From contig NZ_CP059973.1 in the NCBI RefSeq assembly GCF_009193295.2, forward strand, positions 5,146,001 to 5,210,000: a stretch of 64,000 nucleotides of DNA. The letters are read 5' to 3'. Below, piece by piece: positions 25,594 to 55,837 of this stretch. Made by a program: the position numbers and the translations under genes. The stretch comes from Bacteroides luhongzhouii (GTDB taxonomy: Bacteria > Bacteroidota > Bacteroidia > Bacteroidales > Bacteroidaceae). The notes below the pieces were generated by a model. That model was not told the DNA's origin, made no database searches, and saw only the letters and a list, made by a program, of their open reading frames with translations. Numbering within the stretch: position 1 is the first letter of the stretch; each line of letters begins with the position of its first letter.

Positions 25594-25697
25594 TTTAGAC
25601 GGTAATAGCCCAATTAGCGGTTTTTTACAAAAAAGACAGTCAACCATTATCAGGCTATTACAAACGCTGTTACAGTATGCTCTGACAAGGGACAATT

Positions 25698-25785
25698 CTC
25701 ACCGCAATGAGAAAATATTCTCATAACTATGAGAAACTTTTCTCATTACTATGAGTATTTTTTCTCATTGCGATGAGCATAGTTG
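25698..25785. repeat. Array A: four 22-bp units with palindromic cores
   Basis: Units start at 25698, 25720, 25742 and 25764, exactly 22 bp apart. Cores are CTCACCGCAATGAG, CTCATAACTATGAG, CTCATTACTATGAG and CTCATTGCGATGAG, each with CTCA/TGAG arms, separated by A/T-rich 8-mers. The first core is the reverse complement of the last with one mismatch. Flanks are also inverted (gttaca-tatgctc at 25669-25682; gagcata and tgtaac at 25775-25797). It lies between two convergent genes. Confidence 0.85.
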
Positions 25786-25817
25786 AGAAAATGTAACGCC
25801 TCATCATAGTTTATAAA

Positions 25818-26993
25818 TTAATCCGAATACTGATAAACCTTCAAATCGAACTTCGGAACCATTGCCAGCAAATGGTCGAAGATATCCGACTGAATACGCT
25901 CGTATTCTTTCCATACCTTATTGCGAGAGAAAAAATAAACCTGAATAGGTACTCCATACATCGTAGCTTCTTTCTGACTGATAATCAAATCCAACTCTTG
26001 ATTGACCACAGGCAGACTACACAAATAGCGTTCAATATATGCCCTGTACACTTGAGAATTGGTAGGAACGACTCCTTCTTCCGGCTGATAATCCGCCATT
26101 AGTGGAATCTCTTTTCGATAACGGTCCAGCATTTCCGGTGTACAGAATTGAAGTGTAGTCAAGTCTAAAGTTATATTCTTCATCACCCGTCGTCCTCCCG
26201 ACTGTGTCATTCCCCGCCAATTCTGAAAAGGACTGCTCACTAATGTATAAGGGGGAACGGTGGAAATGGTATTATCAAAATTTTGAATCTTGACTGTATT
26301 CAACGTTATTTCCTGTACAATACCGTTTGCGTCACCGGAAGGAAGCGTCACCCAATCCCCCGGACGAACCATATCGTTAGCAGAAAGCTGGATACCCGCC
26401 ACAAAACCTAGGATGGAATCTTTGAATACTAACATTAAAATAGCCGCCGAAGCACCCAAGCCCGCAAATAAAGTGGCCGGAGACTTATTCACAATAATAG
26501 CGACGATTACAATTCCGCCTACAAAGAAAAGAAGCACCTGCAACACTTGGATAAATCCTTTCATCGGGCGGTCTTTCATCGACTCTCTTCCGTCATAGAT
26601 ATCCATTATCATCAACAGAATTCCATTAATAGCCAATAGTAAGGAGAAAATAATATAAATGACGCACGCTTTCTGGGAAATCAGTAACAACTCTTTTCCA
26701 CGGATAAAAGCCATTGGCAACAACGAATAAACTAGAAAAGCCGGGATAGTATGAATCAAATGATGAAATACCTTGCGCTTCATCAACAACGTGTTCCATT
26801 GATGGGGTTTCCGTCTCGTATACTGTTTCATACCTCCGATAAGAATCGCCTGGCAGAGGTAATTCAGAACGATAGCAATCACTATCATCAGTAAAGCCAT
26901 AATAGTCTCATCAAAACGATCGGCAACTGCCGGGTCTATCCCCCAACCTATGAGGGTTTTATTCATCCATTTTCCTAAATCTACTACTAACAT
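25818..26993 (-). CDS. Mechanosensitive channel, YbdG-like MscS family
   Basis: The 391-residue protein has five predicted TM helices (from about 30 to 180), with the MscS pore helix GLGASAAILMLVFKDSILGFVAG leading into the beta domain (VRPGDWVTLPSGDANGIVQEI) and a C-terminal cytoplasmic domain with VYFFSRNKVWKEYERIQSDIFDHL. Size and the C-terminal insert fit E. coli YbdG, an osmotic release channel. No promoter box was recognised upstream. Confidence 0.9.
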   Translation of the reverse strand: MLVVDLGKWMNKTLIGWGIDPAVADRFDETIMALLMIVIAIVLNYLCQAILIGGMKQYTRRKPHQWNTLLMKRKVFHHLIHTIPAFLVYSLLPMAFIRGKELLLISQKACVIYIIFSLLLAINGILLMIMDIYDGRESMKDRPMKGFIQVLQVLLFFVGGIVIVAIIVNKSPATLFAGLGASAAILMLVFKDSILGFVAGIQLSANDMVRPGDWVTLPSGDANGIVQEITLNTVKIQNFDNTISTVPPYTLVSSPFQNWRGMTQSGGRRVMKNITLDLTTLQFCTPEMLDRYRKEIPLMADYQPEEGVVPTNSQVYRAYIERYLCSLPVVNQELDLIISQKEATMYGVPIQVYFFSRNKVWKEYERIQSDIFDHLLAMVPKFDLKVYQYSD

Positions 26994-27113
26994 AACTTCT
27001 GTCTTTTTTAATAAATAACAGTAAAAGATTCATTTGGTTTAGAAAAAAAGAGACCGGCATCCGATTCATCAAGAAACAAGACGCCAGTGCATACCTTTCA
27101 ATGAAGTGACTCA

Positions 27114-27278
27114 TCAGGGAGTCACTATCACTCCTATTTCATTCATGTTTACTTCTGCAATAGTATCATCAGGGGTAGTTGCCTCCAGTTTAATGAAACG
27201 TGACTGCACCTTCTGCCTGAAAAGTACTGCTGATAGGATTAACAAAGTTCGTTTCTTAAAGCTAATGTTCATAAGCAT
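27114..27278 (-). CDS. Possible 54-residue protein
   Basis: Minus-strand ATG 27278 (or 27272) to TGA 27114 encodes a basic N-terminus (MNISFKKR), a short hydrophobic stretch (TLLILSAVLF) and a coding-like tail (FIKLEATTPDDTIAEV). It could be a small exported protein or the remnant of a larger gene. Composition supports it over the antisense frame, but there is no family match and no promoter box. Confidence 0.35.
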   Translation of the reverse strand: MLMNISFKKRTLLILSAVLFRQKVQSRFIKLEATTPDDTIAEVNMNEIGVIVTP

Positions 27279-27420
27279 GTCATCATAATTAGTTTATACA
27301 AGATTGTTTTACAATATGTATGTTCTATTTTTACTATAATTCTTCCATTTTTGTCTAAAATCGTCCAATTCATCAACAAATTACGGCACTATAGACATCA
27401 TTGAAAATCTTACAAATCAA

Positions 27421-27467
27421 AAAAAGAAAGCGGAAGTATTCACTCCTGAATATTCCCGCCTCTTTTA
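27421..27467 (-). terminator. Probable terminator after the rpn gene
   Basis: Imperfect hairpin: aaaagaaagcgg and gtattc face gaatatt and ccgcctctttt, with A/T runs on both sides. It is positioned 46 nt beyond the Rpn stop. Confidence 0.55.
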
Positions 27468-27512
27468 TATTTTATCCTAATATAACTACAACAATTTTCC
27501 TACGAAGATATA

Positions 27513-28526
27513 TTATAGGTTTTCTATATCAGAAGATTGAAGACCCGTGTATTTGATAATTATATCAACAGATATTCCGTCCTCTCTCATCTTTCGAGCA
27601 ATTTCAATTTGCTTCTTTTGCTCTCCTTTCTCCATTCCTTCCTTTCTTCCTTCTTTTATTCCCTCTAGCCTTCCTTTTTTCACTCCTTTTTCCAACCCGG
27701 CCTTCATCCCTTCCTTCATCCCTTCTTCGGCCGCTTTTCTCCGCATCTCTTCATTTTTACGTCGTTCATCCTCCTCTACAATTTGGTTGACCCTATACCG
27801 ATCTAACGCCTTATCATAAGCGATACGGTTTTCTTCCGAAAGATCGGCAACAGCTGCCAATCTCGCCAAATGTTCAAACACTTGTTCTTTCAAAGCATCC
27901 GGCATTCTATTCCAATTGCTCATATTCTTCAGTGCATAAATTAATTTATCATATAATGTATGGCAGTCCGACAAATCCTTTGTAAAATAAGGAAATTGCA
28001 AATAAATCTGCCGAAGATGCGGATTGACAATCTTCCCTGTATCACGATCGGAAAGAACCGTATCCGTACGGAATTTAGCCTCTAAGCTTTCCTCTTTGAA
28101 ATTCATCAAGAAAATTCCATATATAGTAGGTAGTCTATACTGCTTTCCATAAGAGACAAGTGATTCTCTTGCAGTCATCGGATCTTCAGGGACAGGGACT
28201 TCTTTTGAAGAAGGAGATTCTATCTGCCGACTCACAGCACGACAGACATAATAAAGTGTACGATCTAAAAAATTACTGTGCCAACGGTTCTGCATCTCCA
28301 CAATTATATACTCACCACTTGCTGTACGGCAATAAAGATCATAAATGATACCTTTATCACTCACATTGTCTGCATGATCTTCCTTATCGAGAAAAGTAAG
28401 TTCTGTAATATGATGTTCACCTGCAAGTAGTTCGTTCAACAAAGTGATGAGTAAATCCTTGCTGGCCCGTTGACCAAAAATTATTTTAAATCCTATATCA
28501 GTAAAAGGATTGACGTATTTGGACAT
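27513..28526 (-). CDS. Rpn-family PD-(D/E)XK nuclease
   Basis: The 337-residue protein begins with the Rpn/PDDEXK_2 signature (YVNPFTDIGFKIIFGQ) and carries the nuclease core IIYDLYC followed by EYIIVEMQ (D...ExQ). The C-terminus is a charged repeat of Glu-Gly-x-Lys units (EEGMKEGMKAGLEKGVKKG, continuing to about residue 305), typical of this family and easily variable in length. Relatives promote recombination or act in phage defence. A -7 box lies at 28545-28552. Confidence 0.92.
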   Translation of the reverse strand: MSKYVNPFTDIGFKIIFGQRASKDLLITLLNELLAGEHHITELTFLDKEDHADNVSDKGIIYDLYCRTASGEYIIVEMQNRWHSNFLDRTLYYVCRAVSRQIESPSSKEVPVPEDPMTARESLVSYGKQYRLPTIYGIFLMNFKEESLEAKFRTDTVLSDRDTGKIVNPHLRQIYLQFPYFTKDLSDCHTLYDKLIYALKNMSNWNRMPDALKEQVFEHLARLAAVADLSEENRIAYDKALDRYRVNQIVEEDERRKNEEMRRKAAEEGMKEGMKAGLEKGVKKGRLEGIKEGRKEGMEKGEQKKQIEIARKMREDGISVDIIIKYTGLQSSDIENL

Positions 28527-28544
28527 GATATTCTATTTTTGTAG

Positions 28545-28552
28545 CAAAGGTA
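28545..28552 (-). promoter_or_regulatory. -7 box for the rpn gene
   Basis: Minus-strand TACCTTTG, 19 nt upstream of the ATG. The 264 nt beyond it, up to array B, is AT-rich with no gene seen. Confidence 0.6.
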
Positions 28553-28816
28553 ACTATTTAAATCCATAAATATGAGGAACAAGCCTAATCTTTACAGATT
28601 TACAGTCTTTTATAGTAAGTTGTCTCCCTTTCAATTCCTCCAAATAAACAAAAGAAATGTTCTATTTTTTAGATTAAGAAAGAAAACAAAACTATTGAAG
28701 ATGGTAGTCTGAAATTAAAAGCATCCATATTATCACATATATATGCATATTACTGCCACAATACAGCATATATTTTCAGAGGATATGCGTTTTCTTTAAA
28801 GAAATAAATGATTTTC

Positions 28817-28926
28817 CTCGGTGAGCAACAAGCCATTCCTCGATAAGGAACACATCCTTTCTCACCGAGAAAGCTTTCCATACTCACCGACCAAGTTATT
28901 AAAGCTCTCGGAAAAGCCCGTTTATA
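28817..28926. repeat. Array B: five 22-bp units
   Basis: Units start at 28817, 28839, 28861, 28883 and 28905, all 22 bp apart. They begin CTCGGTGAG, CTCGATAAGG, CTCACCGAGAAAG, CTCACCGACCAAG and CTCTCGGAAAAG. Units 1 and 3 are mutual reverse complements over 9 bp. Unit 2 centres on TTCCT-cgata-AGGAA and unit 3 on CTTTCTC-acc-GAGAAAG. It lies upstream of rpn and downstream of a kinase remnant. Confidence 0.85.
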
Positions 28927-29053
28927 TGCCAGTTCATCATCACATGCGGACAAAAAAAGAATGACAAAGCGAACTACATACAGGTAAATAACAAGCATAT
29001 AGACATTAATACAAAGATATTATTTGTTTTTAGACAAGAATTATCTAAAATTA

Positions 29054-29098
29054 CAAACACTCCTGCATTCTTTCATTTAAAATGCAGAGTGTTTTTTC
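29054..29098 (-). terminator. Hairpin with flanking A/T runs
   Basis: acactc(c)tgcatt faces aatgcagagtgt with a 10-nt loop, followed on the plus strand by gttttttcc. It lies 90 nt beyond the receiver-domain remnant and may be its old terminator. Confidence 0.55.
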
Positions 29099-29187
29099 CT
29101 TCACCACAAGCAAGTGACTGATATATTAAAAACAGAAAGAATAGAATATACCTTTTTTTAGATCAGCACATTTTTAATTCCATCCTT

Positions 29188-29591
29188 TCAACAACCATAC
29201 TCTTTTAGAGTCTGCATCAACTTCGCGCCATTGATCGGCTTCACCAGATAATCATCACAACCGGCTTTCAACGCAGCTACCCGGTCGGCATCAAAGGCAT
29301 GAGCAGTCAGAGCGATAATTGGAATTTCCGCATTAAACTTCCGGATCTCTGAGGTTGCAGTACGCCCGTCCATCACAGGCATCTTCATATCCATCAATAC
29401 CAAATCCACCGGTTGGGTACGGACAATCTCAACTGCCTTCAGTCCATTCGGTGCGTGTAACAACTGGCATTTGTTTTTCTAGATAGCATTAGTTACAAAG
29501 TTAGTGAGAATCTGCGCTAACCGTTTTTTATCCAAACGAACGGTACAGGTCTCATAAGGATTCACGGGAACCAAACAAACCTGCGGATTTA
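29188..29591 (-). pseudogene. Deletion remnant of a hybrid histidine kinase
   Basis: Reading the minus strand from 29591, one frame gives the end of a HATPase N box (RLDKKRLAQILTNFVTNAI), an in-frame TAG, then the back half of a receiver domain (LLHAPNGLKAVEIVRT, VLMDMKMPVMDG, IIALTAHAF, DYLVKPI). Everything between, including the G1/G2 boxes and the receiver's acidic pocket, is missing, as is everything upstream, where it abuts the nucleotidyltransferase stop. An internal deletion is the simplest explanation. Confidence 0.85.
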
Positions 29592-30326
29592 CTATAAAAA
29601 GTCTTCTGCTTTCGCTAAAGTTTCCGGTTTGCCTATATCAATCAGATGTAACTTTTCTGTCAAATAACCACCATAGTTTACTTGCTGACAAGTGGCAAGA
29701 TAGAAATCCATAATAGAGAATTTACCCTCCCAACAGGGAGAAGCCATCCATTGGAAAATGGCAGGCGAAAGTACATGGATGCCACTGAATGCATATTCGT
29801 GATAAAGGGAAGGATCATACTGAAAACCTTCCGGTTTCACTTGTTCCGTATCCTTGTTTATCCATCCGCAAAGTCTCTTGCCTGCATCAAAAAGAAGATA
29901 GCGGGAGGTTTTACGTTGGCTGGCCAGTAAAGTGGCAACAGCACCGCTTTGTAGATGGTAGTCATATAAATCTTTCAAATTCACGTCTGAAAGAATATCT
30001 ACATTGTGTATCAGGAAAGGCTCATCGGAGTTTTCAAAGAAAGAACGGGCTTTCTTAACTCCCCCACCCGTGTCGAGTAACAGGTCACGTTCGTCGGAAA
30101 TATGTATGATAAGTCCAAAATTCTCATTGGCTTTCAAGAAGTCAAGTATCTGTTCGCCAAAATGGTGAATGTTAATCACTATTTCTGTGAAGCCGGCAGC
30201 TTTCAGTTTTAAGATCACATGTTCCAACATCGGACGTCCGGCTATGGGAACCAAAGCCTTAGGCATGGTATCGGTGAGTGGCTTCAGCCGGCTACCCAAA
30301 CCGGCTGCAAATATCATTGCTTTCAT
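29592..30326 (-). CDS. Sugar-1-phosphate nucleotidyltransferase, MurU-like
   Basis: The 244-residue cytoplasmic enzyme has the nucleotidyltransferase signature MIFAAGLGSRLKPLTDTMPK and the sugar-binding VDILSD and DIGKPETL segments. Length and context fit MurU (MurNAc-1-phosphate uridylyltransferase), which works with the kinase AmgK to recycle cell-wall amino sugars. It lies 35 nt downstream of the AmgK-like gene in the same direction. A hexose-1-phosphate guanylyl- or thymidylyltransferase is the alternative. Confidence 0.8.
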   Translation of the reverse strand: MKAMIFAAGLGSRLKPLTDTMPKALVPIAGRPMLEHVILKLKAAGFTEIVINIHHFGEQILDFLKANENFGLIIHISDERDLLLDTGGGVKKARSFFENSDEPFLIHNVDILSDVNLKDLYDYHLQSGAVATLLASQRKTSRYLLFDAGKRLCGWINKDTEQVKPEGFQYDPSLYHEYAFSGIHVLSPAIFQWMASPCWEGKFSIMDFYLATCQQVNYGGYLTEKLHLIDIGKPETLAKAEDFL

Positions 30327-36306: not shown

Positions 36307-37203
36307 ATGGGAACAATCATAAAGTTAGATTCGGTGCAAGACTACAACGAACTGTTGGGAGTAGAGACTGTTCATCCATTGGTAAGCGTAGTCGATTTTT
36401 CGGAATTGGAGAGTGTCCGCCACTGCCTCAAGAATTTTGGTTTTTACTGCATTTTCCTCAAACATATCGATTGTGGTCCGCTACTTTACGGACGTAACCA
36501 ATACGATTATCAAGAAGGAACATTAGTCTTTATTGCACCGGGGCAGGTTGCCGGCGTTGATGATGGCAAAGTATCGTACCGATACAAAGGATGGTGTCTG
36601 ATGTTCCACCCCGATTTGTTGCGTGGCACTTCTCTCGGACGTCGCATGGCAGATTACTCATTCTTTTCCTACTCGTCAAACGAAGCATTGCATATGTCCG
36701 AACGCGAACAGCAAATTATCATTAACTGTTTCCACGAAATCAAGGAAGAACTGCAACACGTCATAGACAAACACTCGAAACAAATTATTGCAGCCAATAT
36801 TGAAGTGTTGCTCAACCATTGCGTCCGTTTTTACGACCGCCAGTTCGTAACACGTGAAACGGTGAACAAAGACTCACTAACTCGTTTTGAAGAACTATTA
36901 CGTGGTTACTTTGCTTCGGATAAACCCCAGCAACTCGGTTTGCCCTCGGTGGCATGGTGTGCCGACCAACTGCATTTATCCGCCAATTATTTCGGTGATC
37001 TTATTAAGAAAGAAACCGGAAAATCAGCACAAGAATATATCCAGCTAACCACCATCGACCGTGCTAAAGAATTGCTGATTGAAGGTAACAAATCGGTTAG
37101 CGAAATCGCCTACGAATTAGGATTTAAATATCCACATCATTTAAGCCGGTTATTTAAAAAAGTGGTAGGGTTGGCTCCGAATGAATATAAGATGGCTAAT
37201 TAG
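36307..37203 (+). CDS. AraC-family transcriptional regulator
   Basis: The 298-residue protein has an N-terminal cupin-like effector domain (about 20-170) and a C-terminal double helix-turn-helix (about 205-298: WCADQLHLSANYFGDLIKK and SVSEIAYELGFKYPHHLSRL). It is divergently transcribed from the redox/hydrolase cluster, the usual arrangement for a local regulator. The ligand is unknown. Confidence 0.92.
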   Translation: MGTIIKLDSVQDYNELLGVETVHPLVSVVDFSELESVRHCLKNFGFYCIFLKHIDCGPLLYGRNQYDYQEGTLVFIAPGQVAGVDDGKVSYRYKGWCLMFHPDLLRGTSLGRRMADYSFFSYSSNEALHMSEREQQIIINCFHEIKEELQHVIDKHSKQIIAANIEVLLNHCVRFYDRQFVTRETVNKDSLTRFEELLRGYFASDKPQQLGLPSVAWCADQLHLSANYFGDLIKKETGKSAQEYIQLTTIDRAKELLIEGNKSVSEIAYELGFKYPHHLSRLFKKVVGLAPNEYKMAN

Positions 37204-37245: not shown

Positions 37246-37377
37246 CAGTGCAAAGAATAAAGAATTTCAGTGCAAAAACTTATATATAGTTTATGCACTC
37301 GGGTAGTCGTCACCTTATAATAAGACAATAGTCACCTTATAAAAAGATAAATGTCACTTTATAATAGCGCAACAGGA
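37246..37377. repeat. Array C: six 22-bp units in the pilus operon leader
   Basis: Units start at 37246, 37268, 37290, 37312, 37334 and 37356. Units 1-2 begin CAGTGCAAA; unit 3 carries the inverse TGCACT; units 4-6 share gtcacCTTATAA / gtcactTTATAA spaced exactly 22 bp. The array fills most of the gap between araC and the pilus genes and ends about 160 nt before the first pilus ATG. No -7 box was recognised in the rest of the 334-nt gap. Confidence 0.8.
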
Positions 37378-37537
37378 AATTAGTATCAACCTGGCACACA
37401 AAATGCAGCATTTTAAAGGGCTTGCCTAATCTTATCAATGATTTAACAGAAAATATATTCATTGCGCAAAAACAAATCTGAAATAACGTTGTTCATATCG
37501 AATTCTATTTTGATTTTCTGTTTAAATCTTGACTATT

Positions 37538-38404
37538 ATGAATGTACGGTTCATGCATTCTTTATATTTGGCAGCTTTATTGGGATTTACCAATTCCTGC
37601 ATCTCCGATGATCTTTCCGATTGTCCCAATCCTCAATATATAGTGCAGGTATCTGTAAAAGATAAGAATTACAAGAATATTGTAGACTTCCCACAACTTG
37701 GATCTAAAGAAGAGAATGCACCGTTCCAACGTTTTGAAGGAACGATCTATTATACTTTAAGCGAATCGACTACCCGTGCCCGGGTGAAAGAGTCTTCCGT
37801 GATGACTGTTTATGGCGAAGACCGGACATACTCTATTATTCTTACCGATATTCCGGAGGGAGAATATATTCTGACTGTATGGGGAAACATGACATCAGAA
37901 TACCCGGCAGGTATCTTGCACCAGAATACCAAAGAGCATACGGACATTTATATGACTACCCGTACACTCCGGCTTGACCGTTCCTATCAGACAACCGAAC
38001 TTTCATTGGAACGAACTAAAGGTCTGTTCCTGTTACTTTGCTCCAACTTCCCGGCTACAGTGACAAGTGTAGGTCAAAGTATCAACCATCTCTATCAGTC
38101 AGTAGATGCAAATTTCAATTATACAGGTAATACGAATATAGAAAAACGTGTACCAATGCAACCAACCATATCTACATGGCTTGCCCCCACTTCAGAAGGT
38201 CCTTCAAAGGTAAAACTCATTTTTTATACAGATGATACAAGGGCAACCGCTCCCTTTCCGGAACTGCCGGAGATGGACCTTACCATGAAGCGCAACGAAA
38301 TATCAGCTATCGCTGTAGATTATAAAAAAACAGATGGCGTATGTGAAGTCTGGATGTTCATCCAAGAACAATGGGTCATGATTCATCGTCTGGATATACA
38401 ATGA
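37538..38404 (+). CDS. FimB/Mfa2-type pilus anchor lipoprotein
   Basis: The 288-residue lipoprotein (lipobox GFTNSC) resembles the FimB/Mfa2 family that caps and anchors type V pili at the cell surface. Features are an acidic SDDLSDCP segment after the lipid Cys, beta-rich domains and the motif TLRLDRSYQTTELSLERTKG. The first ATG (37538) is preferred over a TTG at 37529. It is the first of four same-strand pilus genes. Confidence 0.82.
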   Translation: MNVRFMHSLYLAALLGFTNSCISDDLSDCPNPQYIVQVSVKDKNYKNIVDFPQLGSKEENAPFQRFEGTIYYTLSESTTRARVKESSVMTVYGEDRTYSIILTDIPEGEYILTVWGNMTSEYPAGILHQNTKEHTDIYMTTRTLRLDRSYQTTELSLERTKGLFLLLCSNFPATVTSVGQSINHLYQSVDANFNYTGNTNIEKRVPMQPTISTWLAPTSEGPSKVKLIFYTDDTRATAPFPELPEMDLTMKRNEISAIAVDYKKTDGVCEVWMFIQEQWVMIHRLDIQ

Positions 38405-38439
38405 TTATTCCCTTATTTTTTACTAAAACCTTTACAATT

Positions 38440-39522
38440 ATGAAGAAATGGATGTTTTTTGTAGCAGCAAGCCTGTCCGTATTTGCTGCATGCTCTAATG
38501 AAGATGATCTGACTGTTCAGCCCCAACCGGAGGACGGTAGCGTTATTTTTGAACTTTCGGCCGTAAATAAACTTAGTGACGGCATTTCCACGCGCACTCC
38601 GGTGTATAGCCAGGAAGCTTCCCAACATGTCACCCGAGTTAGCATTTATGCTTTCCAGTTTGCTTCTGCCAGTTCCAGCTATCTGTATTATAAGACTTAT
38701 ACGGTGACAGACTGGAGTGATGGAACCACTTTTAAGCACTTTGCTGTGCCTGATGGAAACAAACTTCCTGGGGGAACCTATAAGTTTTTGGCAGTAGGAC
38801 GTGATGCATCAGACTTGTTCAATATAACTACGCCAACATCTACTACGACTTATGGTGATATGCTGGCTACGATTGCGAGTACGGGACAGGAATCTGAAAT
38901 CTTTTCCGGTTCGGCAGAAGCTATGGTCACCGATCAAGGTGCCCGTGTAAGCATTGAAATGACCCGTAAAGTTGCCGGTGTGCTCGGATATTTTAAAAAT
39001 GTACCACAACAGTTGAATAACAGTACAGTGCGATACTTACGCCTGGCGGTGAGCAACTCTAATCAACAAGTGAATCTGACCACCGGAACAGGTATTAATA
39101 CAACTCCCGTCTCCTATAATATCATAGATCTTGATTTGTCCGGACAGGCAGTGTCCAATGGTGTATTTGCAGGGAATGATCTTTCATCGCAGGGAGTCGT
39201 AAAAGTTGCTAACTCACAGTTGGGCGGTGCTTTCTATATGCCGGTTAGCGGAGTAACCATGACTCTTGGACTTTATGACACTTCGGGTACGGCCATTAAG
39301 GAATGGACTGTAAAAGATAATACCAGTAATGCCACCACTTTTGATATTCTGGCTAATCACTTCTACTCTTTGGGAACGAAAGGAGCTGCCGGCAGCACGA
39401 ATGGTGGCACTCCGGGTGACCCGGGTGATGATGACAATCCGATCGATTTATTAATTGACCAGAATATAGTAATCACGATCAGTCCGGCATGGTCACTGAT
39501 TCATAACCTCATCATCCAGTAA
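38440..39522 (+). CDS. Fimbrillin-like lipoprotein (Mfa/FimA superfamily)
   Basis: The 360-residue protein has a lipobox (VFAACSNED). After about 30 residues comes GISTRTPVYS; Arg52 is placed like the arginine cleavage site that matures type V pilins. The beta-rich body ends in a Gly/Asp linker (GGTPGDPGDDDNPID) and a last strand (IVITISPAWSLIHNLIIQ) that could act as the donor strand. The start is ATG 38440, 35 nt after the previous stop. It could be the major or an accessory subunit. Confidence 0.8.
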   Translation: MKKWMFFVAASLSVFAACSNEDDLTVQPQPEDGSVIFELSAVNKLSDGISTRTPVYSQEASQHVTRVSIYAFQFASASSSYLYYKTYTVTDWSDGTTFKHFAVPDGNKLPGGTYKFLAVGRDASDLFNITTPTSTTTYGDMLATIASTGQESEIFSGSAEAMVTDQGARVSIEMTRKVAGVLGYFKNVPQQLNNSTVRYLRLAVSNSNQQVNLTTGTGINTTPVSYNIIDLDLSGQAVSNGVFAGNDLSSQGVVKVANSQLGGAFYMPVSGVTMTLGLYDTSGTAIKEWTVKDNTSNATTFDILANHFYSLGTKGAAGSTNGGTPGDPGDDDNPIDLLIDQNIVITISPAWSLIHNLIIQ

Positions 39523-39556
39523 AAAACTTGAATCGTAGATTTTGAGAACAACAGGT

Positions 39557-40582
39557 ATGAAATTGACAAATCATATAATAGCCTTGTTTACGGGAATAGG
39601 AATGATTCTCTTGGGTGGATGTTCCACAGAAGAGAACCGGGACCTGTTCCCGGATGAAAGCATCGTTCCTGTGCATTTGGCTATAAGCGGAAACAGCAAT
39701 TATACTCGTGCCCCGGGTGATGCTGCCCTTTCAGTGAACAGGATACTGATTTTACCTTTCCGTAAAACGAATGAAGCATTGACGGATGATCCTGCCAATT
39801 TCGTACCTGAATATAGTTCGGCACGCCAACTGAATGTCAGTTCGTTTCCAGCAGTCGCTACCATGCTGAACTTATCCGCCACATCCACTTATCAGCTGGT
39901 TATAATCGGTTATAACCAAAACGATTATGATTTTGCCAATCAGAATAGTGCTACACGGAAGTTCAGTATTCTTTCTACCGTTACACCTGCCACACTGGCA
40001 AACTTGTATCTGCAACCAACCAACACACCGGTTGTGCCGGAATTATTTTCCTGTACCGGGACCGGTTATTTAAAAAACGCTCTGGTAGGACAAAAATTCA
40101 AACCTTCGCAGGTGGACAATGTGAAAGGAACGCTTACACGGTTAGTAAGTGCCCTAAGCCTGCAAGTAAATAACGTTCCGGGCTACGTAAACGCTATGAC
40201 TCTAGCAGCCGAACAACTGGTAACGGGTACTAGGATTACGGATGCTGCCCCCTTGACATGGCAGACAGCAGGCGATAGTGGAATAAAGACATTAGGAACG
40301 AAAATGCCTGTTTCGGGCAGTGTGAGTTTTAATCTTTATATGCTGCCAACTACCACAACCAGAAACACACTGCTCTATCTGGATGTAGCGTATGGCACCG
40401 GTTTCAAGGAACGATATACAGTAAAAATTCCCGATCAGACAGGAGTCGTGTCAGGAAACCGTATTACGTTCGATTCTAATCATTGGGTAAAGATTACTGG
40501 AGATTATTCTTCTATTAATCTGGGATTTACCTTATCTGGCAACATCAATCTGGATGATAATGCATGGGATGGTATTCAATAA
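39557..40582 (+). CDS. Fimbrillin-like lipoprotein
   Basis: The 341-residue protein has a lipobox (ILLGGCSTE) and a candidate Arg cleavage site at NYTRAPGDA (Arg51), followed by a fimbrillin-type body (VNRILILPFRK, LTRLVSALSLQVNNVP). It ends DNAWDGIQ, a C-terminal strand pattern common in accessory pilins. It lies between the other pilin genes, with the next start 2 nt after its stop. Confidence 0.8.
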   Translation: MKLTNHIIALFTGIGMILLGGCSTEENRDLFPDESIVPVHLAISGNSNYTRAPGDAALSVNRILILPFRKTNEALTDDPANFVPEYSSARQLNVSSFPAVATMLNLSATSTYQLVIIGYNQNDYDFANQNSATRKFSILSTVTPATLANLYLQPTNTPVVPELFSCTGTGYLKNALVGQKFKPSQVDNVKGTLTRLVSALSLQVNNVPGYVNAMTLAAEQLVTGTRITDAAPLTWQTAGDSGIKTLGTKMPVSGSVSFNLYMLPTTTTRNTLLYLDVAYGTGFKERYTVKIPDQTGVVSGNRITFDSNHWVKITGDYSSINLGFTLSGNINLDDNAWDGIQ

Positions 40583-40584
40583 TA

Positions 40585-42129
40585 ATGATAAAAGCCATGA
40601 AAACAGCTTGTTTGGTAATAGTAGCTTTATTTTTTTCTTTTCTCTTTGCCGGCTGTGACAAGGAGGAGGACAATCTATCGGAACCGTCTTCCGGGAATCA
40701 ATCTTCGGAGGAAGTTACATCGGATATACCTGACGGATATTTTGAGGTTATGTTTTCGCCAAAGAAATCCCCCGATACTCGTGCCGCAGTTTCCGGTTCA
40801 GATCTCCGGGTGCGTAGTATTCGTTACGTCATCTATAAGACTACCGGCGAGTTTGTGAAAGAAAAAGTAGTATTAAAACCTACTGATTCCGCTCCGGTAT
40901 GGCCTTTAGCCGCCATGAGAGATACGCTTCCCAAAGGACAATATACTGCTGTATTCCTTGCGAATATGGATAAAACACAATTTCCGATATCAGGAACAGG
41001 AGGAAGCACTTATTCGGATCTATTGACCGATTATCAGACTATGCGTGCCAATGCGCGTATCAATCTGCCCGGTTCGGAGTTCTCCGACACTTCTGAATTT
41101 TATTTTGCCAACGTGAGTTTTTCGAATACGACATCACAACCTTCTGTTTTGTTACAGCGTATCATTACGATGCTCAATCTCCGCCGCGTGTTTGTAGATT
41201 CGCAAACGGCATTGAACTCGCTAAGCAATAATATCGTAACTCAAATCGGTTATAAGAATATAATAAAGACTACAGTACAAGGAGTTCTTCCGGGTTTGTT
41301 GAAAACAGCTATGGATCTGGGGGCACTGGGGAATGCAGTATATGCCGTGGTGGGAGGATTGGATGCTGCTGTCAACTTGGTGGTCGGTGTACTAGTTCAA
41401 CCGGTTACTGATGCATTATATAATCAGTTGTTGCAACAGTTAGTGAATGAAATAGGCCGGACCCTTTCCGGTAACGCCACACAGGATGGCGCTCTGGGAG
41501 CTTTGGGAAATTTGTTGAATCCCTGGCGTGGCAGTGATGCCGCCTATGCTTTGGTTACCATTAATAACTTTCCGAAAGCTATGGATTTAGATTTGAACGT
41601 AACGGACACTTATTCCGGCAATCATCGCTTCCGTTACAGCTTTACCCCTACTCCCGGAACCACTAATAGTGAAAAAGATATTCTTATCAGAGGATTCCAT
41701 GGTGTGTTTAACGTACGGGAGATTCATGTAGCCAAACCCGGGCTTATCTCCGGCTTACTGATTGATGAAGTTATAGACGGTAGTCTGTTGCTGAATGGCG
41801 CACTGGTGAATATAACCGATCCTATTCAGGCTACAGTAGAGACTAACTATCGCTATCGGTCGGATTACTCTTTCGTCAGCCTGGGATTGAAATCATATAC
41901 CCAACAAACGGATGGCAATCACTCGTTGACTCTTTCTGTGAAATTGTCCAATATAGCTAATTTGAACGGTATCTTGGAGGGGATTCCACTCCTGGGTCCT
42001 GTATTGAATATTACGATTAAAGGGTTAATAGGTAATATTACGGTCAGCGTGCCTATCAATCTGCCTTTATTGGGAGCCGATAATTTAAGCTTGTCCGGTA
42101 GCTGGAAAACACCACCAGTGAAATATTAG
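40585..42129 (+). CDS. Large fimbrillin-like lipoprotein, probable tip or accessory subunit
   Basis: The 514-residue protein has a lipobox (LFAGCDKEE) and an Arg site at PDTRAAVSG (Arg66). The N-terminal half is fimbrillin-like (LRVRSIRYVIYKTTGEFVKE). The middle (about 225-315) is unusually hydrophobic and Gly/Ala/Leu-rich (LGALGNAVYAVVGGLDAA), not typical of a pilin and possibly membrane- or surface-active. It is the last gene of the operon; an alternative start is ATG 40597. Confidence 0.75.
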   Translation: MIKAMKTACLVIVALFFSFLFAGCDKEEDNLSEPSSGNQSSEEVTSDIPDGYFEVMFSPKKSPDTRAAVSGSDLRVRSIRYVIYKTTGEFVKEKVVLKPTDSAPVWPLAAMRDTLPKGQYTAVFLANMDKTQFPISGTGGSTYSDLLTDYQTMRANARINLPGSEFSDTSEFYFANVSFSNTTSQPSVLLQRIITMLNLRRVFVDSQTALNSLSNNIVTQIGYKNIIKTTVQGVLPGLLKTAMDLGALGNAVYAVVGGLDAAVNLVVGVLVQPVTDALYNQLLQQLVNEIGRTLSGNATQDGALGALGNLLNPWRGSDAAYALVTINNFPKAMDLDLNVTDTYSGNHRFRYSFTPTPGTTNSEKDILIRGFHGVFNVREIHVAKPGLISGLLIDEVIDGSLLLNGALVNITDPIQATVETNYRYRSDYSFVSLGLKSYTQQTDGNHSLTLSVKLSNIANLNGILEGIPLLGPVLNITIKGLIGNITVSVPINLPLLGADNLSLSGSWKTPPVKY

Positions 42130-50168: not shown

Positions 50169-51146
50169 CTATTCATCCAGTCCTTCAATCGTGATGATTT
50201 TTCCATCAGCATCGTATTGCAGTTCACAGACTTTCAGGCTACGAAGCCAGGTTTTCCCTTCGGAAGGTACGCAATCGTGATGGAACAGATACCATTTACC
50301 TTTGAACTCAACAATAGCATGATGAGTAGTCCATCCCACTACCGGAGTCAGGATAACTCCCTGATAAGTAAATGGTCCATAAGGATTGTCACCTATCGCG
50401 TAACAAAGTAGATGGGTATCGCCTGTAGAATAAGAGAAATAATATTTCCCATTATATTTATGTACCCAGGAAGCTTCGAAGAAACGACGTTCTGTATCTC
50501 CTGCTGTCAGAGGTTTACCGTTTTCATCCAGAATGACTAACGGACGCGGTTCTTCCGCAAACTCCATCATATCATCACTCAAACGAACAACACGGGATGG
50601 TAAGGCTTCCTCCTCTCCTTCGGGTAAAATGGCTGATTCTAATGCTTTATTATTCCGGTAACGTTGAAGCTGTCCCCCCCACAGTCCGCCGAAATACATA
50701 TAATAATTACCATCCCCATCATTCCAGACAGCCGGATCGATGCTGTAACTTCCTTTCATCGGGTTTGCTTCCGGAATAAAAGGTCCGTATGGTTTATCGC
50801 TCACAGCTACTCCGATACGGAATATGTCGTTTTGGTCTTTCAATGGAAAATACATATAATATTTACCGTCTTTAAAAGCAACATCACAGTCCCAAAGCTG
50901 ACGGCCTGCCCAAGGAATATCTTCCGTAGAAAGTACAACCCCGTGGTCAGTAATCTCTCCATTCATTACATCATCCATAGAATACACATGGTAATCTTTC
51001 ATATTGAAATGATCTCCGTTGTCATTTTCGGAAATACCGCTTTCCCAGTCATGAGAAGGATAAATGTAAAGCTTACCATCAAATACGTGTACGGCAGGAT
51101 CGGCCATATAGTCGCCGGGCACTAAATATCTTTTTTCTGTTTTCAT
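50169..51146 (-). CDS. GH43 beta-xylosidase / arabinofuranosidase without signal peptide
   Basis: The 325-residue five-bladed propeller has the GH43 triad: base Asp in YMADPAVHVF, pKa-modulating Asp in SIDPAVWND and acid Glu in FFEASWVHK. It starts MKTEKRYLVPGDYMADPAVH with no signal or TM, so it should be cytosolic, pairing with the GPH symporter gene upstream. This fits final hydrolysis of imported xylo-oligosaccharides. Subfamily specificity is not decided here. Confidence 0.93.
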   Translation of the reverse strand: MKTEKRYLVPGDYMADPAVHVFDGKLYIYPSHDWESGISENDNGDHFNMKDYHVYSMDDVMNGEITDHGVVLSTEDIPWAGRQLWDCDVAFKDGKYYMYFPLKDQNDIFRIGVAVSDKPYGPFIPEANPMKGSYSIDPAVWNDGDGNYYMYFGGLWGGQLQRYRNNKALESAILPEGEEEALPSRVVRLSDDMMEFAEEPRPLVILDENGKPLTAGDTERRFFEASWVHKYNGKYYFSYSTGDTHLLCYAIGDNPYGPFTYQGVILTPVVGWTTHHAIVEFKGKWYLFHHDCVPSEGKTWLRSLKVCELQYDADGKIITIEGLDE

Positions 51147-51216
51147 GGTTTTATTCTTTTTACAAAGTTATAGTTCTAAATTAGCTTTATAAATGGGTAT
51201 TTAATGAGTTCAAATT

Positions 51217-51308
51217 TGCAGAGGTCGTGTACAGCTCTATACAGAGATCGTGTACAGCTCTATGCAGAGATCGTGTATAACCCTATGCAGAGGTCATGCA
51301 AATTTGAG
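51217..51308. repeat. Array D: four 23-bp units between inverted repeats
   Basis: Units start at 51217, 51240, 51263 and 51286, each 23 bp. They begin TGCAGAGGTCGTG, TACAGAGATCGTG, TGCAGAGATCGTG and TGCAGAGGTCATG. Unit junctions make dyads CTCTATACAGAG and CTCTATGCAGAG. The array is bracketed by caaatttgca (51211-51220) and tgcaaatttg (51297-51306). It lies between two genes of the xylan operon. Confidence 0.88.
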
Positions 51309-51325
51309 TCCATTTCGTTAAATTA

Positions 51326-52462
51326 TCATTTCTGCATTGCCTCATTGATAATCAAACTGACTACGGGTTTCGGCTGATAACTGCGGTCGAAAAGTAGCGG
51401 ATAATCCGTACGCCCTCTCATCGGCCAGTCATTACGCCAAGTATCCAGATCGGTTACCCCCCAAAGGGTAACTCGTGTGATGATATCCTGATGTTTCAAA
51501 AACAGGCGGAAGAAATCATTCATCCGTTCGGTCCATGCTTTCGATACATCCTCCGGCAATCCATTGGGATAAGGATTCATATCCTTTTTATATTCGAACG
51601 AAGCGGAAACTTCTGCACCTATGTTTTGCTTCGGTGTGGGCAATACCGTCAGATCGAGTTCTGTAACCATCACTTTCACCCCTGCCTCTGCAAATGCAAG
51701 CATACTCTTTTCAAACTCGCCGACCTCCGGATAGTCCATACCGATGTGTCCCTGCATACCTACCGCATCAATACGGATGCCACGCCTTTTCAATGCTTTC
51801 ACCAGTTTTACGACTCCTGCCCTCTTTCCGGGATTAGCCATAGAAAAGTCGTTGTAGTAAAGTTCTGCGTCCGGATCAGCCTCATGTGCATATTGGAAAG
51901 CCAACGGAATATACTCTTCTCCCAAAATCTCATAAAACTTGCTTTTGCGATAAGACCCGTCATCTTCTATCGCCTCATTCACTACATCCCAGCCTATGAT
52001 ACGGCCTTTATATCGTTTCACAATAGTAGTGATATGATCTTTCATCCGTTTCTTCAAAACTTCCGGAGAAACATTCTTTCCTTCCCCATCCACACAGAAC
52101 CAAGGAGAAAGTTGTGAATGCCATATCAAAGTATGTCCCGTGATGACCATCCCGTTCTTCTCCCCAAAAGCAACAAATTCATCCGCTTGCGTGAAGTTAT
52201 AACGATTTTCCTCCGGGTGCATCTCCTGACTCTTCATGCAATTCTCCGCTACAATAGCATTAAATTGTTCCTGAATTACGCGCACTCCTGCTTTATCCTG
52301 ACCGGACGCTTGTCGTGTATTCACCGCTGTTCCTATCAGGAACTTACCCTTCAAAGCTTCTTTCAAAGTCTTTTTTTCTTGTGCAAAAGCTACCGAAGTA
52401 CTAGTTATCAGGGCCACAACAGCCAACAAAAAAACTGCGGTTGTTCTTGTCGAAGTCTTCAT
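51326..52462 (-). CDS. GH10 endo-beta-1,4-xylanase (periplasmic)
   Basis: The 378-residue protein has a cleavable signal peptide ([18 protein letters not shown], no lipobox) and a single GH10 barrel: acid/base Glu in [15 protein letters not shown], nucleophile Glu in [10 protein letters not shown], plus [13 protein letters not shown]. Without CBMs or lipid anchor it probably trims oligosaccharides in the periplasm after SusCD import, unlike the surface GH10 upstream. Confidence 0.96.
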
Positions 52463-52491
52463 ATAGTCTATCTATTAGTTATAGTTATTAA

Positions 52492-53976: not shown

Positions 53977-53997
53977 GGTACTACTATCTTTTTTAAT

Positions 53998-55644
53998 TTA
54001 TTTGACTCTTTGTTGAAAGACTGCCTGGGAAACACGTTGTCCCAACGTCTTTTTATCCAATGGATGAATATCATTCCATTCTCCTAAATCACCATTTTTA
54101 ATTAGAGTGACATTTTTATTTGTATTGGCTACTTCTGCCTGCACTTTCCGGAACTCCGCCCAGGCAGCACGTCCTCCTTTATCTTCAGGTGAGAGGAAAT
54201 CCGCCAGTTCAATCACATAGAAAGGCATATCAGGTCGATTCCAACGCTGTCTCCAATCTGCAATCATCGCCGTCAACAAGTCTTTATATTCATTTCTGCG
54301 AGACACATTCGATTCACCCTGATACCAGATAACACCGGATACCGTATAATTCAATAAAGGAGCAATCATGGCGTTATAAAGTCCCACGGGTTTATAATGA
54401 AAAGCTGTCTGTCCCGGAGCAGCAGGCATGGGAGCGCCAAGACGATATCTCCAGTTACCTTCGAGACTAATCTCCGATTCTCCTTTTTCCGGCTGACCTT
54501 TTCCGAAAAGTATCTTATAAGGCTTCTCCTTTACAAAGTGAGGGAAGCCGCCATAGCTGAAAAGACGTATGGTTATCGTATTTTTTCCAGCTTTCAACAA
54601 TCCGGCGGGAATGGTATAAATACGTGGTGGATATTGATAAGAAACTGTTCCCACAAACGTACCGTTCACATAGACGGAGTCTACATCTACAATACATCCC
54701 AGACGGAGAGTTGCCTTTTCTCCCGCTTGTTGCCCGGACACTTGAAAATCTTTTCGGAACCAGTGGGAACCATTGATTGTATTCAATCCGTTAGTAGCCC
54801 AGCCGGAAGCAAACAAGTCAGTCGGTGTCCAATCACTGTCATCATAGTCGGCAGCATACCAAGGGGTGGCTTCATGCATTCCTTTATCTCCCTGATACAG
54901 TGTTACATTCCAGGCACGGCTTTTCTTGCTCTCTTCTTTTTTCATTGACTCTACCAAGTCATCTGATTCGTAGATACGTTTTTCGTTCAGATAATAAGGA
55001 AAAGGCTTCAAACCTTCCTCACTGATCCACGCTTCTACCGGTGAACCTCCGACACTAGAGTTTATGATTCCTACCGGAATTTTTGTTTTCTGAAAGTAAT
55101 CTTTAGCAAAGAAATAAACCAAAGCAGAAAATGACATTACATTTTCAGGAGTCATAGCCTTCCAGGAGATTCCCGGAATATCTGTCTGCGGAGCATGAAA
55201 GTTATACAATAGAGGAGTTTTTATATAACGTACCATCGGATAATTACTGTCTGTAGATATTTCATCCCGAAAACGGTCTGTAACCCGTGAAACGGGTAAT
55301 TCCATATTCGACTGACCGGAACATACCCAAACGTCCCCCACAAGAATATCCTTCAATTCTATATCATTAATAATCATCGTGTAAGGTCCACCAGCTTTCA
55401 ATGCAGGTAAGGTTACTTTCCAGTTGCCTCGCGCATCAGCAACGGTCTTATATTTCTCTTTTTGGAAAGTGATACCAACAGTTTCATCAGGATCAGCCGT
55501 CCCCCAAATATTGACAGGCTCCCCGCGTTGAAGCACCATTCCGTCGGAAACAAAAGCGGGAAGTTTAACCTTTGCTTCGCCCAACACAGCGAAGCAAAGG
55601 AACACAACTACTAACCCAACCTTATAAAACCAATACTTATTCAT
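53998..55644 (-). CDS. SASA-type carbohydrate O-acetylesterase
   Basis: The 548-residue protein has a signal peptide (VGLVVVFLCFAVLGEA) and the sialate O-acetylesterase-like SGNH fold: nucleophile block VCSGQSNMELPVS, WYQGESNVSRRNEY and the C-terminal catalytic pair DIHPLDK. In a xylan locus it most likely removes acetyl groups from xylan or xylo-oligosaccharides, letting the xylanases act. A beta-sandwich insert (about 230-370, GSHWFRKDF) splits the esterase domain, as usual for this family. Confidence 0.9.
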   Translation of the reverse strand: MNKYWFYKVGLVVVFLCFAVLGEAKVKLPAFVSDGMVLQRGEPVNIWGTADPDETVGITFQKEKYKTVADARGNWKVTLPALKAGGPYTMIINDIELKDILVGDVWVCSGQSNMELPVSRVTDRFRDEISTDSNYPMVRYIKTPLLYNFHAPQTDIPGISWKAMTPENVMSFSALVYFFAKDYFQKTKIPVGIINSSVGGSPVEAWISEEGLKPFPYYLNEKRIYESDDLVESMKKEESKKSRAWNVTLYQGDKGMHEATPWYAADYDDSDWTPTDLFASGWATNGLNTINGSHWFRKDFQVSGQQAGEKATLRLGCIVDVDSVYVNGTFVGTVSYQYPPRIYTIPAGLLKAGKNTITIRLFSYGGFPHFVKEKPYKILFGKGQPEKGESEISLEGNWRYRLGAPMPAAPGQTAFHYKPVGLYNAMIAPLLNYTVSGVIWYQGESNVSRRNEYKDLLTAMIADWRQRWNRPDMPFYVIELADFLSPEDKGGRAAWAEFRKVQAEVANTNKNVTLIKNGDLGEWNDIHPLDKKTLGQRVSQAVFQQRVK

Positions 55645-55753
55645 TATCCATTCTTTTATGTCTTTATTTCATAGTAATCCGGAAAGAGAAACAATCCGTC
55701 CTGAATTCCACTTTGCAAACTTAGGAAGTTTCTCTCCGCTTACCCAGAATTTT

Positions 55754-55837
55754 TGATTCAAATCATTAGTCGCTTGTTACATCATCGTTTACGTATGTTA
55801 CAAATACTTGTCGTAATGTTACACCCAAATTGAGATT
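55754..55837. repeat. Array E: three to four 21-bp units
   Basis: Clear units start at 55775, 55796 and 55817 with TGTTAC, exactly 21 bp apart; a weaker one precedes at 55754 (TGATTC). Junctions include the dyad GTAATGTTAC and TACGTATGTTAC. It sits in the 328-nt gap between the esterase and the surface xylanase, and nothing else gene-like is seen there. Confidence 0.72.

Follow-up and report, generated by a model that had tools for sequence, protein, structure and literature searches.

Four intergenic sites in the 64,000-nucleotide stretch of Bacteroides luhongzhouii DNA that we analysed (the window) are members of a large class of elements found between genes in Bacteroidales. The commonest form of the class is a row of four short palindromes whose centres lie 22 bp apart (23 bp in some families, rarely 21). 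Its members have period and form in common, not sequence, and this core of the original prediction survived the refutation test that came with it. Among the roles offered for the arrays, binding sites in helical phase for dimeric proteins that bind DNA cooperatively would fit best, and we give this reading, in which binding itself is deduced from sequence, a probability of about 40%. The fit comes from a spacing that is nearly invariant and from arms that are conserved while the spacers, and in family F1 also the palindrome centres, are freer. No publication describing the class was found in the open-licence literature, among the matches listed.

Periodic arrays in the window

Lags of 8 to 60 were scanned in the window's 24 intergenic gaps of 60 bp or more (6,736 bp in total). 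The best distinct arrays were site 4 (lag 23, score 43) and site 1 (lag 22, score 38), followed by site 3 (lag 22, score 24) and site 2 (lag 22, score 19). Six rows scored 16 or more, against a mean of 0.0 in 20 dinucleotide shuffles; these rows are sites 1 to 4 and the double lags of site 4 (46) and site 1 (44). TRF calls sites 1, 3 and 4, and sites 2 and 5 were not called. Five periodic arrays had been proposed, of which sites 1 to 4 stand far above chance. Site 5 was rejected as a class member: it falls outside the best 40 scan rows, whose lowest score is 8, and has no dyad (p 0.93). The features are listed below.

25698..25777, no strand assigned: site 1, four CTCA-N6-TGAG palindromes starting at 25698, 25720, 25742 and 25764 (spacing 22)
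25667..25694, plus strand: left flank common to F1 copies, of the type TGTTTCAG..TATTCTGACAAGGG, boundaries set by eye
28817..28926, no strand assigned: site 2, four to five units of 22 bp with dyads CTCGGTGAG / CTCACCGAG
37309..37375, no strand assigned: site 3, three 22-bp units of the GTCACCTTATAATAAGACAATA type (lag scan, TRF)
51217..51308, no strand assigned: site 4, three full and a partial fourth 23-bp unit, TGCAGAGATCGTGTACAGCTCTA (lag scan, TRF)
51210..51220, plus strand: left arm TCAAATTTGCA of an 11-bp inverted repeat around site 4, paired in the RNA fold
51297..51307, minus strand: right arm TGCAAATTTGA of the same inverted repeat, read from the sequence
55754..55837, no strand assigned: site 5, three TGTTACA copies at 21-bp steps within a conserved 5' leader; not a class member

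The gene contexts vary as claimed. Site 1 lies between convergent genes, 24391-25593 (plus strand, Exo_endo_phos_3) and 25818-26993 (minus strand, MscS channel), and site 2 between a gene of the PDDEXK_2 nuclease family (27513-28526, minus strand) and a nucleotidyl transferase gene (29592-30326, minus strand). Site 3 is situated between an AraC-type regulator gene (36307-37203, plus strand) and an operon for fimbriae with genes of the Mfa2 type (37529-42129, plus strand), while site 4, which occurs once in the genome, separates a GH43 gene (50169-51146, minus strand) from a GH10 gene (51326-52462, minus strand). The proposed dyad in each unit reaches significance at site 1 (p 0.006) and site 2 (p 0.008), and not at sites 4 (p 0.10) and 3 (p 0.35). 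Site 5 resembles the two-turn direct repeats of HTCS regulators in B. thetaiotaomicron, whose motifs average 21 bp (excerpts of PMC3878776), and is probably bound by a regulator of that kind.

Abundance and geometry of the class

The genome was sampled in 59 spaced 20-kb stretches, that is, 1.18 Mb of 5.76 Mb, and intergenic arrays were counted at a score of 16 or more and lags of 8 to 80. The period was 22/23 or its double in 34 of the 48 intergenic repeat arrays. The shuffled sample yielded one array, at another lag; no array at lag 22/23 was present in sampled coding DNA, and in the intergenic DNA of E. coli these two lags and their doubles were likewise empty. For lags of 15 to 40 and scores of at least 16, lags 22/23 account for 28 of 35 arrays (p 2.5e-25 against equal lags), as expected of a periodicity that is not due to chance, and the peak at score 16 or more is at 22 (23 arrays, compared with 3 at lag 21). 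Extrapolation gives about 166 arrays, so that the expectation of hundreds per genome was right in order of magnitude.

Among the 34 arrays, the lag is 22 or 44 in 28 and 23 or 46 in 6. The unit number rounds to something other than four in 12 of the 28 arrays at lag 22 or 44, and dyads reach p<0.05 in 19 of the 34 and are not significant in 15. Grouping by shared 9-mers yields 17 clusters, and nine multi-copy clusters take 26 of the 34 arrays. The claim of locus-specific sequence fails genome-wide for this reason, and also because site 1 is one of 13 places occupied by the dispersed family F1. Neighbouring genes are convergent at 8 arrays, divergent at 6 and co-directional at 18, and 2 arrays are cut by a stretch end; the convergent and divergent shares (8/32 and 6/32) match the expectation from intergenic length (p 0.25 and 0.83). 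Eleven of the co-directional arrays are closer to the upstream 3' end and seven to the downstream 5' end.

Arrays are frequent in sampled loci of Bacteroides, Parabacteroides and Phocaeicola/Prevotella. Other Bacteroidales MAGs contributed one array, and the sampled Alistipes-type, Flavobacteriia-type and non-Bacteroidota loci had none.

Families with a common register

The families F1, F2 and F3 consist of four units of 12-14 bp and spacers of 8-10 bp. A search by pattern alone recovered 86 exact ATAGTGACGSTAT units of one family; with up to one mismatch there were 131 matches, compared with 26 for the reversed pattern. Consecutive units less than 500 bp apart (n=56) are separated by 22 bp in 47 cases, 44 bp in 8 and 66 bp in 1, and no off-register neighbour exists within 500 bp. 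The 22-bp spacing is held in 19 of 19 F3 loci with a spacer identity of just 33%, and four units at 22 bp are present in all 13 F1 and all 7 F2 elements, the loci of which came from four-unit queries. Helical spacing is hence invariant despite spacer divergence, with the exception of a 23-bp step in locus L271. The families are limited to lineages: F3 occurs in 8 of 60 genomes of the genus, F1 in 7 of 15 and F2 in 4 of 11.

Family F1 lies between convergent genes at 10 of its 13 places (p 9e-6), and its spacers are A-rich, then T-rich. Its copies share flanks beyond the array; the left flank, compared at the 13 places, is clear by eye in about nine. Flanks are also shared between some families, as in the F1 copy L007 and L110 (78% over 65 bp). 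It had also been proposed that the arms of the dyads change together, which is not the case in F1. Columns 5 and 10 of its 80 units (20 elements) read TA in 48, TG in 16, CA in 11, CG in 3 and TT in 2, and they are unassociated (Fisher p 1.0 on 78 of the 80 units, the two TT units being left out), while columns 6 and 9 pair in 21 of 80 units against 26.0 expected. For F1, an argument from symmetry beyond the invariant arms is not supported by the sequences.

Conservation at orthologous loci

Between sister species, 2% of arm positions have changed, compared with 10% in spacers and 15-19% in flanks. The counts come from 11 F3 and 4 F1 array pairs with one sister genome (G021); pair L263/L182, which is degenerate, the F1 pairing L285/L007, which does not match, and every pair with genome G044 were excluded. 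In F3, changes affect 7/352 arm, 5/220 centre, 30/297 spacer and 236/1381 flank positions (arms vs spacers, p 1e-5; entire array vs flanks, p 1e-19). In F1, 3/128 arm and 43/96 centre positions have changed, and fixed arms with free centres would be expected if a dimer reads only CTCA/TGAG. Judged from these comparisons, arms and register are under purifying selection in orthologues. At 12 of the 14 F3 loci checked in G021, at least one adjoining gene matches those at F3 loci here, which indicates that F3 copies are old and have been retained.

Periodicity was kept at the orthologous loci examined, with two exceptions in detail, namely the 23-bp step in L271 and a change from four to six units in L272. 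Site 2 is kept in G021, and the place equivalent to site 3 holds four palindromic units there (by eye). Site 4 is missing in G021, where the aligned gene blocks are about 37 bp apart. The gap on the MscS side is 33 bp or shorter and has no array in 13 loci, and measures 150-300 bp with an array in seven genomes. In one orthologous convergent gap, the best lag is 22 in all seven genomes with a gap of 150-300 bp, and this gap holds three different unit families.

That last observation bears on the view of the arrays as a mixed bag, namely operator clusters of local regulators (AraC, hybrid two-component and others) with sites about two turns apart, plus chance. The HTCS of B. thetaiotaomicron are predicted to act on direct repeats averaging 21 bp (excerpts of PMC3878776), which site 5 fits, and the position of site 3 next to an AraC-type gene and a fimbrial operon is in line with this view. 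For the class, it is already weak and we consider it very unlikely: most sampled arrays fall in multi-copy clusters, F1 is mainly found between 3' ends, HTCS motifs are two sites and not four palindromes, the lag peak here is 22 and not 21, and three families occupy a single orthologous gap.

Comparison with known repeats and selfish elements

The original prediction named the BrickBuilt elements of Porphyromonas as the nearest parallel. BrickBuilt and REP/BIME are indeed the nearest kinds, but the one-family 23-nt unit of the first and the RAYT gene with cognate repeats of the second are not seen here. According to excerpts of PMC4596501, BrickBuilt of Porphyromonas gingivalis is a MITE of one family with gapless, imperfect 23-nt units (1 to 22.8 per copy), its 19 copies in ATCC 33277 are dispersed and always intergenic, its DNA matches are in P. 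gingivalis and P. gulae, and its leader/tail segments carry IS5-type TIRs, GAGACCTTTGCA (Table 2). The arrays are similar in their occurrence in Bacteroidales, in their gapless, imperfect units, in their dispersed intergenic copies and, at site 4, in one inverted repeat, TIRs being present in some BrickBuilt copies. They differ from what those excerpts describe in having many families per genome (17 clusters, as opposed to one family with a 23-nt unit), mostly 22 bp, usually four units and often a palindrome in each unit.

With REP, BIME and REPIN, the arrays share short extragenic palindromes, many per genome, in regularly spaced clusters (excerpts of PMC3733652 and PMC2817692). REP/BIME are located mainly between convergent and unidirectional genes (PMC3733652, excerpts), and gyrase, IHF and DNA polymerase I are interaction partners of BIMEs/REPs (PMC2817692, excerpts). 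The arrays, in contrast, form many families in a common register, as a class lack 3'-end enrichment, and have no matching RAYT that we found. GTAG is present at least three times per strand in 1 of 38 arrays and CGTC in 0 of 38, F3 units having a central CGTC twice per strand. RAYT-driven REPs were rejected as an explanation, as the genome has a single Y1_Tnp match (36.3 bits), and the repeats on either side of it are AAATCCGC repeats, mixed in period (14/21/23), and not the array families.

The arrays resemble HTCS operators of B. thetaiotaomicron, from the same genus, in having sites about two turns apart on one face. Those operators are two direct-repeat sites at sugar-operon promoters (PMC3878776, excerpts), whereas the class is built of four palindromes and usually exceeds two units; only site 5 would match. 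CRISPR repeats are 24-48 bp long with non-repetitive spacers (PMC3733652, excerpts), sizes not seen in F1 to F3. The arrays, mostly palindromes at an estimated 166 chromosomal places, also differ from plasmid iterons and the TnsB sites of Tn7 ends. Such sites, about four of about 22 bp in helical register for one protein, are direct repeats adjoining a replication or transposition gene.

We consider it somewhat unlikely that the arrays are MITE- or REPIN-like selfish elements, whose phased palindromes would be needed by a transposase or recombinase for copying, with no gain for the host. A MITE-like spread, as suggested earlier, draws partial support from the dispersed multi-copy families, the F1 flanks shared beyond the array, the flanks shared between some families (F1 copy L007 and L110), the inverted repeat bracketing site 4, and gain or loss at site 4 and in the MscS-side gap. 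BrickBuilt-like TIRs were also counted within 400 bp of 38 arrays: 21 arrays had them at up to 3 mismatches, compared with 9 in the reversed control, 3 vs 3 at up to 2, and 0 at up to 1. Against selfish elements speak the purifying selection on arms and register, the age and retention of F3 copies, and a sole Y1 transposase match that adjoins its own irregular repeats. Target duplication is not evident by eye (F3 flanks, site 4), and F3 is unmatched in plasmids and F1 in phages.

RNA structure

RNA hairpin ladders or one long hairpin could terminate transcription, protect RNA ends or be cut by nucleases, in the manner of REP/BIME RNA at 3' ends, and 22 bp is also two turns of A-form RNA. All six folded strands exceed their dinucleotide shuffles (z of -9.7 and -9.1 for the plus and minus strands of site 1, -13.7 for F3 locus L154, -7.9 for F2 locus L139, -3.3 and -2.6 for the minus strands of sites 2 and 4), and the convergent position of F1 with its A-rich, then T-rich spacers agrees with such a role. 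We nevertheless regard it as unlikely, and of the roles originally offered it is less supported. F1 arms do not covary, and U1:U4 and s1:s3 complementarity within an element does not exceed that across elements in F1, F2 or F3 (U2:U3, p 0.047, F3 only). One long hairpin per array was rejected: the folds look convincing, but nested partners are no better within than across elements. A terminator or 3'-end role for the class was also discarded, given no 3'-end enrichment relative to intergenic length and none at convergent gaps. Hairpins, moreover, could presumably do without exact spacing. Rfam 15 at gathering score gave 0 matches in positions 24000-57000 of the window.

Position along the chromosome

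F3 is biased toward the terminus here (30 clusters, KS p 1.3e-5), in G021 (p 5e-4, 14 of 43 candidates scored) and in G044 (p 0.005, 5 loci). Its position differs from that of F1 in the three genomes (p 2e-5, 1e-3 and 9e-3, respectively) and from that of F2 here (p 1.3e-5) and in G021 (0.002); the genomes are not independent. Against a uniform distribution, F1 and F2 alone are not significant here (p 0.08 and 0.10), nor is F1 in G021 (0.24) or G044 (0.08). Origins were placed from the GC skew in the sampled stretches, and moving them by 0.3 Mb keeps p <=0.03; F1 matches to the flank alone (three, in G044) were excluded.

MatP, SlmA and Noc zone the chromosome elsewhere. It is conceivable, though quite unlikely, that the arrays are chromosome-organising address sites whose families would mark origin-terminus zones through paralogous proteins, F3 in the terminus half and F1 and F2 nearer the origin. 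F3 resembles matS, the macrodomain site of MatP, in being a GTGAC-containing palindrome concentrated in the terminus half, but matS are single sites and F3 forms phased arrays spread broadly over half a chromosome. MatP itself was rejected, as Pfam PF06303 has 0 matches in the genome and the E. coli control was positive.

Phased protein sites as the best-fitting proposed role

If the arrays are phased protein sites, each palindrome would bind one dimer of a sequence-specific DNA-binding protein, and the 22-bp spacing, about two helical turns, would place adjacent dimers on the same face of the DNA. Four dimers could assemble cooperatively into a single nucleoprotein complex, which may separate or organise neighbouring transcription units or chromosome regions. 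The families would have reached their places through copying and then been kept by selection. The many palindromes per genome would require a paralogous set of proteins or one that tolerates sequence variation, and this need for many specificities in one genome counts against phased sites, as do a period that varies by family (22, 23, few 21), the 15 of 34 arrays whose dyads miss significance, the altered geometry at L271 and L272, unit numbers other than four, the restriction of families to lineages, conserved arms that would equally suit a structural RNA, and the strong convergence of F1. For regulator monomers spaced by two turns, the HTCS motifs of B. thetaiotaomicron provide a precedent (PMC3878776, excerpts).

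Our results suggest that the genomes of one dominant group among gut bacteria each contain more than 100 small intergenic elements, which retain their geometry as one sequence is exchanged for another. If they are bound by protein, the arrays point to a new nucleoid or transcription-insulation system; if they are selfish, they represent a new miniature-element architecture in Bacteroidales. Either way, they are landmarks outside Rfam, as seen in positions 24000-57000 of the window, and they complicate the mapping of promoters and terminators.

Periodic arrays in the window

The original prediction listed five intergenic arrays with a strict short period, and each intergenic gap of the window was scored at each lag (the repeat period) by its best ungapped self-match.

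25698-25785, site 1, between convergent Exo_endo_phos_3 and MscS channel genes
28817-28926, site 2
37246-37377, site 3
51217-51308, site 4
55754-55837, site 5

Over lags 8-60, the four top distinct arrays are sites 4 (lag 23, score 43), 1 (22, 38), 3 (22, 24), and 2 (22, 19), and none of twenty dinucleotide shuffles of the window gaps reaches a score of 16, which bears out the periodicity of these four. Site 5 did not hold up as an array, since it lies outside the 40 best rows of the scan and shows no dyad on testing; HTCS operators (PMC3878776) fit it better than the array class does. Elsewhere in the window, the Rho gene (1097-3394, 765 codons) has a long region preceding the Rho RNA-binding domain and contains AAC/AAT-rich tandem repeats at 1971-2163.

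Frequency, unit anatomy, and register

The chromosome is one contig of 5,760,088 bp, from which 59 spaced 20-kb stretches (1.18 Mb, including 117,423 intergenic bases) were scanned at lags 8-80 for scores of at least 16. This sample contains 48 arrays: 23 at lag 22, five at lag 23, five and one at the doubled lags 44 and 46, and 14 spread over all other lags, three of them at lag 21. Lag 22 or 23 accounts for 28 of the 35 arrays at lags 15-40 (p = 2.5e-25 against equal lags), and a single shuffle of the sampled gaps gave one array, at lag 57. Extended to the whole genome, the sample corresponds to about 166 arrays. Coding DNA (10 stretches, 183 kb) holds two arrays at the same threshold, at lags 12 and 21, and none at lag 22 or 23. 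Two arrays separated by about 84 kb (4,235,989 and 4,320,164) are identical as printed and may reflect a recent duplication.

Written out in register, most of the sampled arrays appear to have four units; judged by length, the 28 arrays at lags 22 and 44 have about four units in 16 cases, three in 5, two in 1, and five or more in 6. The unit palindromes are CTCA-N6-TGAG in F1 (the family of site 1), CCACGGCCGTGG and ATAGTGACGSTAT in the dispersed families F2 and F3, and GGGAAAGTATTCCC, ACACCCGGGTGT, and AACAAAGGCTCTGTT outside these families, and the dyad is significant (p<0.05) in 19 of 34 sampled arrays. The register is nearly invariant. When 86 exact F3 units were located by pattern alone, ignoring spacing, their 56 consecutive distances below 500 bp were 22 (47), 44 (8), and 66 bp (1); because F3 spacers have a mean pairwise identity of only 33%, this spacing is kept without the spacer sequence being kept. 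F3 units are arranged as a forward pair followed by a reverse pair in 14 of 19 loci of a first set, and in none of eight further loci of the same genome. At loci L120 (1084-1242) and L118 (19051-19192), units of other motifs, GATACCGGTATC-type palindromes in L118, extend F2 arrays on the same 22-bp lattice.

Taxonomic distribution

The same scan was applied to 76 loci of relatives, grouped by record titles, counting periods of 22/23 or their doubles at scores of at least 16. In intergenic DNA, the Bacteroides loci contain 20 arrays over 64 kb, Parabacteroides 5 over 13 kb, Phocaeicola/Prevotella 3 over 11 kb, and the remaining Bacteroidales MAGs 1 over 33 kb; none was found in Alistipes-type loci (6 kb), Flavobacteriia and similar (13 kb), or two non-Bacteroidota (5 kb). 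In E. coli K-12, five stretches of 50 kb each, with 29 kb of intergenic DNA in total, contain none at lags 22, 23, 44, and 46, against 8.4 expected at the B. luhongzhouii density (p = 2e-4); at a score of at least 14, single arrays appear at lags 8, 21, 49, 61, and 66, the last being 3 x 22. Each family is confined to certain lineages of the genus, with F3 present in 8 of 60 genomes, F1 in 7 of 15, and F2 in 4 of 11.

Sequence families and orthologous comparisons

The site 1 query matches 13 places and the F2 query 7, exact F3 units form 30 clusters, site 2 has two additional partial matches, and site 4 is single-copy. Shared 9-mers place 26 of 34 sampled arrays into nine clusters of at least two. 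F1 copies have flank sequence outside the array in common, and one of them, L007, also matches 65 bp of the flank of L110 (78%), whose core differs. The left flank of L110, the right flank of L007, and L129 carry common flank sequence around differing cores, as if these cores were modules that could be swapped. By match coordinates, both F1 flanks are joined by about one unit in a relative (G044:C1:909508-909586; L294, ~2009-2087), as though three units had been lost from an array of four.

Changed positions between B. luhongzhouii and its sister species (G021)
Family (array pairs): arms; centres; spacers; flanks
F3 (11): 7/352; 5/220; 30/297; 236/1381
F1 (4; L290/L002, L287/L006, L288/L020, L289/L008): 3/128; 43/96; 15/96; 121/515

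Within F1 palindromes, the six bases at the centre outpace their surroundings (43/96 vs 136/611 changed, p = 7e-6), for which unit exchange between copies is one possibility. Exceptions in G044 are a 23-bp step in L271 and six units in L272, against four in the orthologous F3 array L176. In G021, site 2 is kept with a fuller dyad, site 3 has four palindromic units by eye, and site 4 is absent.

The MscS-Exo_endo_phos gap measures at most 33 bp in 13 loci, all without an array. Its best lag is 22 in B. luhongzhouii (224 bp), G021 (~295 bp), and L024, L025, L049, L054, and L057 (151-276 bp); by eye, these seven genomes present three different unit families, L057 being weak (score 12). This count omits L022, L023, L052, L053, and L096 (gap >1.7 kb), L046 and L097 (MscS gene uncalled), and L030 (array present, neighbour gene undetected). 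The best named matches of the MscS gene are Bacteroides loci, at identities of at most 95%.

Position on the chromosome

GC skew places the origin at ~1.2 Mb and the terminus at ~4.2 Mb. None of the 30 exact-unit F3 clusters is closer than 0.97 Mb to the origin, while F1 and F2 are found at shorter distances from it. This contrast recurs in G021 and G044, largely through shared loci; as 12 of 14 F3 loci in G021 adjoin genes matching those of F3 loci in B. luhongzhouii, the genomes are not independent in this respect, and origin-terminus zoning is a lead, not a result.

Comparison with known systems and possible function

The nearest kinds are BrickBuilt (PMC4596501) and REP/BIME (PMC3733652, PMC2817692); the B. 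luhongzhouii arrays lack at least one tested defining feature of each. BrickBuilt-type TIRs with at most 3 mismatches occur within 400 bp of 21 of 38 arrays; the reversed pattern gives 9, and there is no excess at 2 or fewer. The sole Y1-transposase (RAYT-like) match of the genome (L208 3330-4220; ~4,995,330-4,996,220) is flanked by AAATCCGC/GCGGATTT repeats of mixed periods 14, 21, and 23, and is probably a true RAYT accompanied by REPs of its own. Tn7 ends, iterons, the matS motif, SlmA, Noc, and the helical-repeat argument provide general comparisons.

RNA structures are an unlikely reading. F1 is concentrated at 3' ends, with a convergent setting in 10 of 13 places (p = 9e-6); the class as a whole shows no such concentration, and the arrays failed both a long-hairpin test and the test for covariation between arms, which had been proposed as a sign of selection on symmetry. 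Given these results, together with arms and spacing that stay fixed and spacers that vary more, we tentatively favour phased protein sites (probability about 0.42), with selfish miniature elements as a less likely rival. Dimer-binding sites lined up on one helix face would leave the arms and spacing fixed and the spacers freer; in F1 the centres are free as well.
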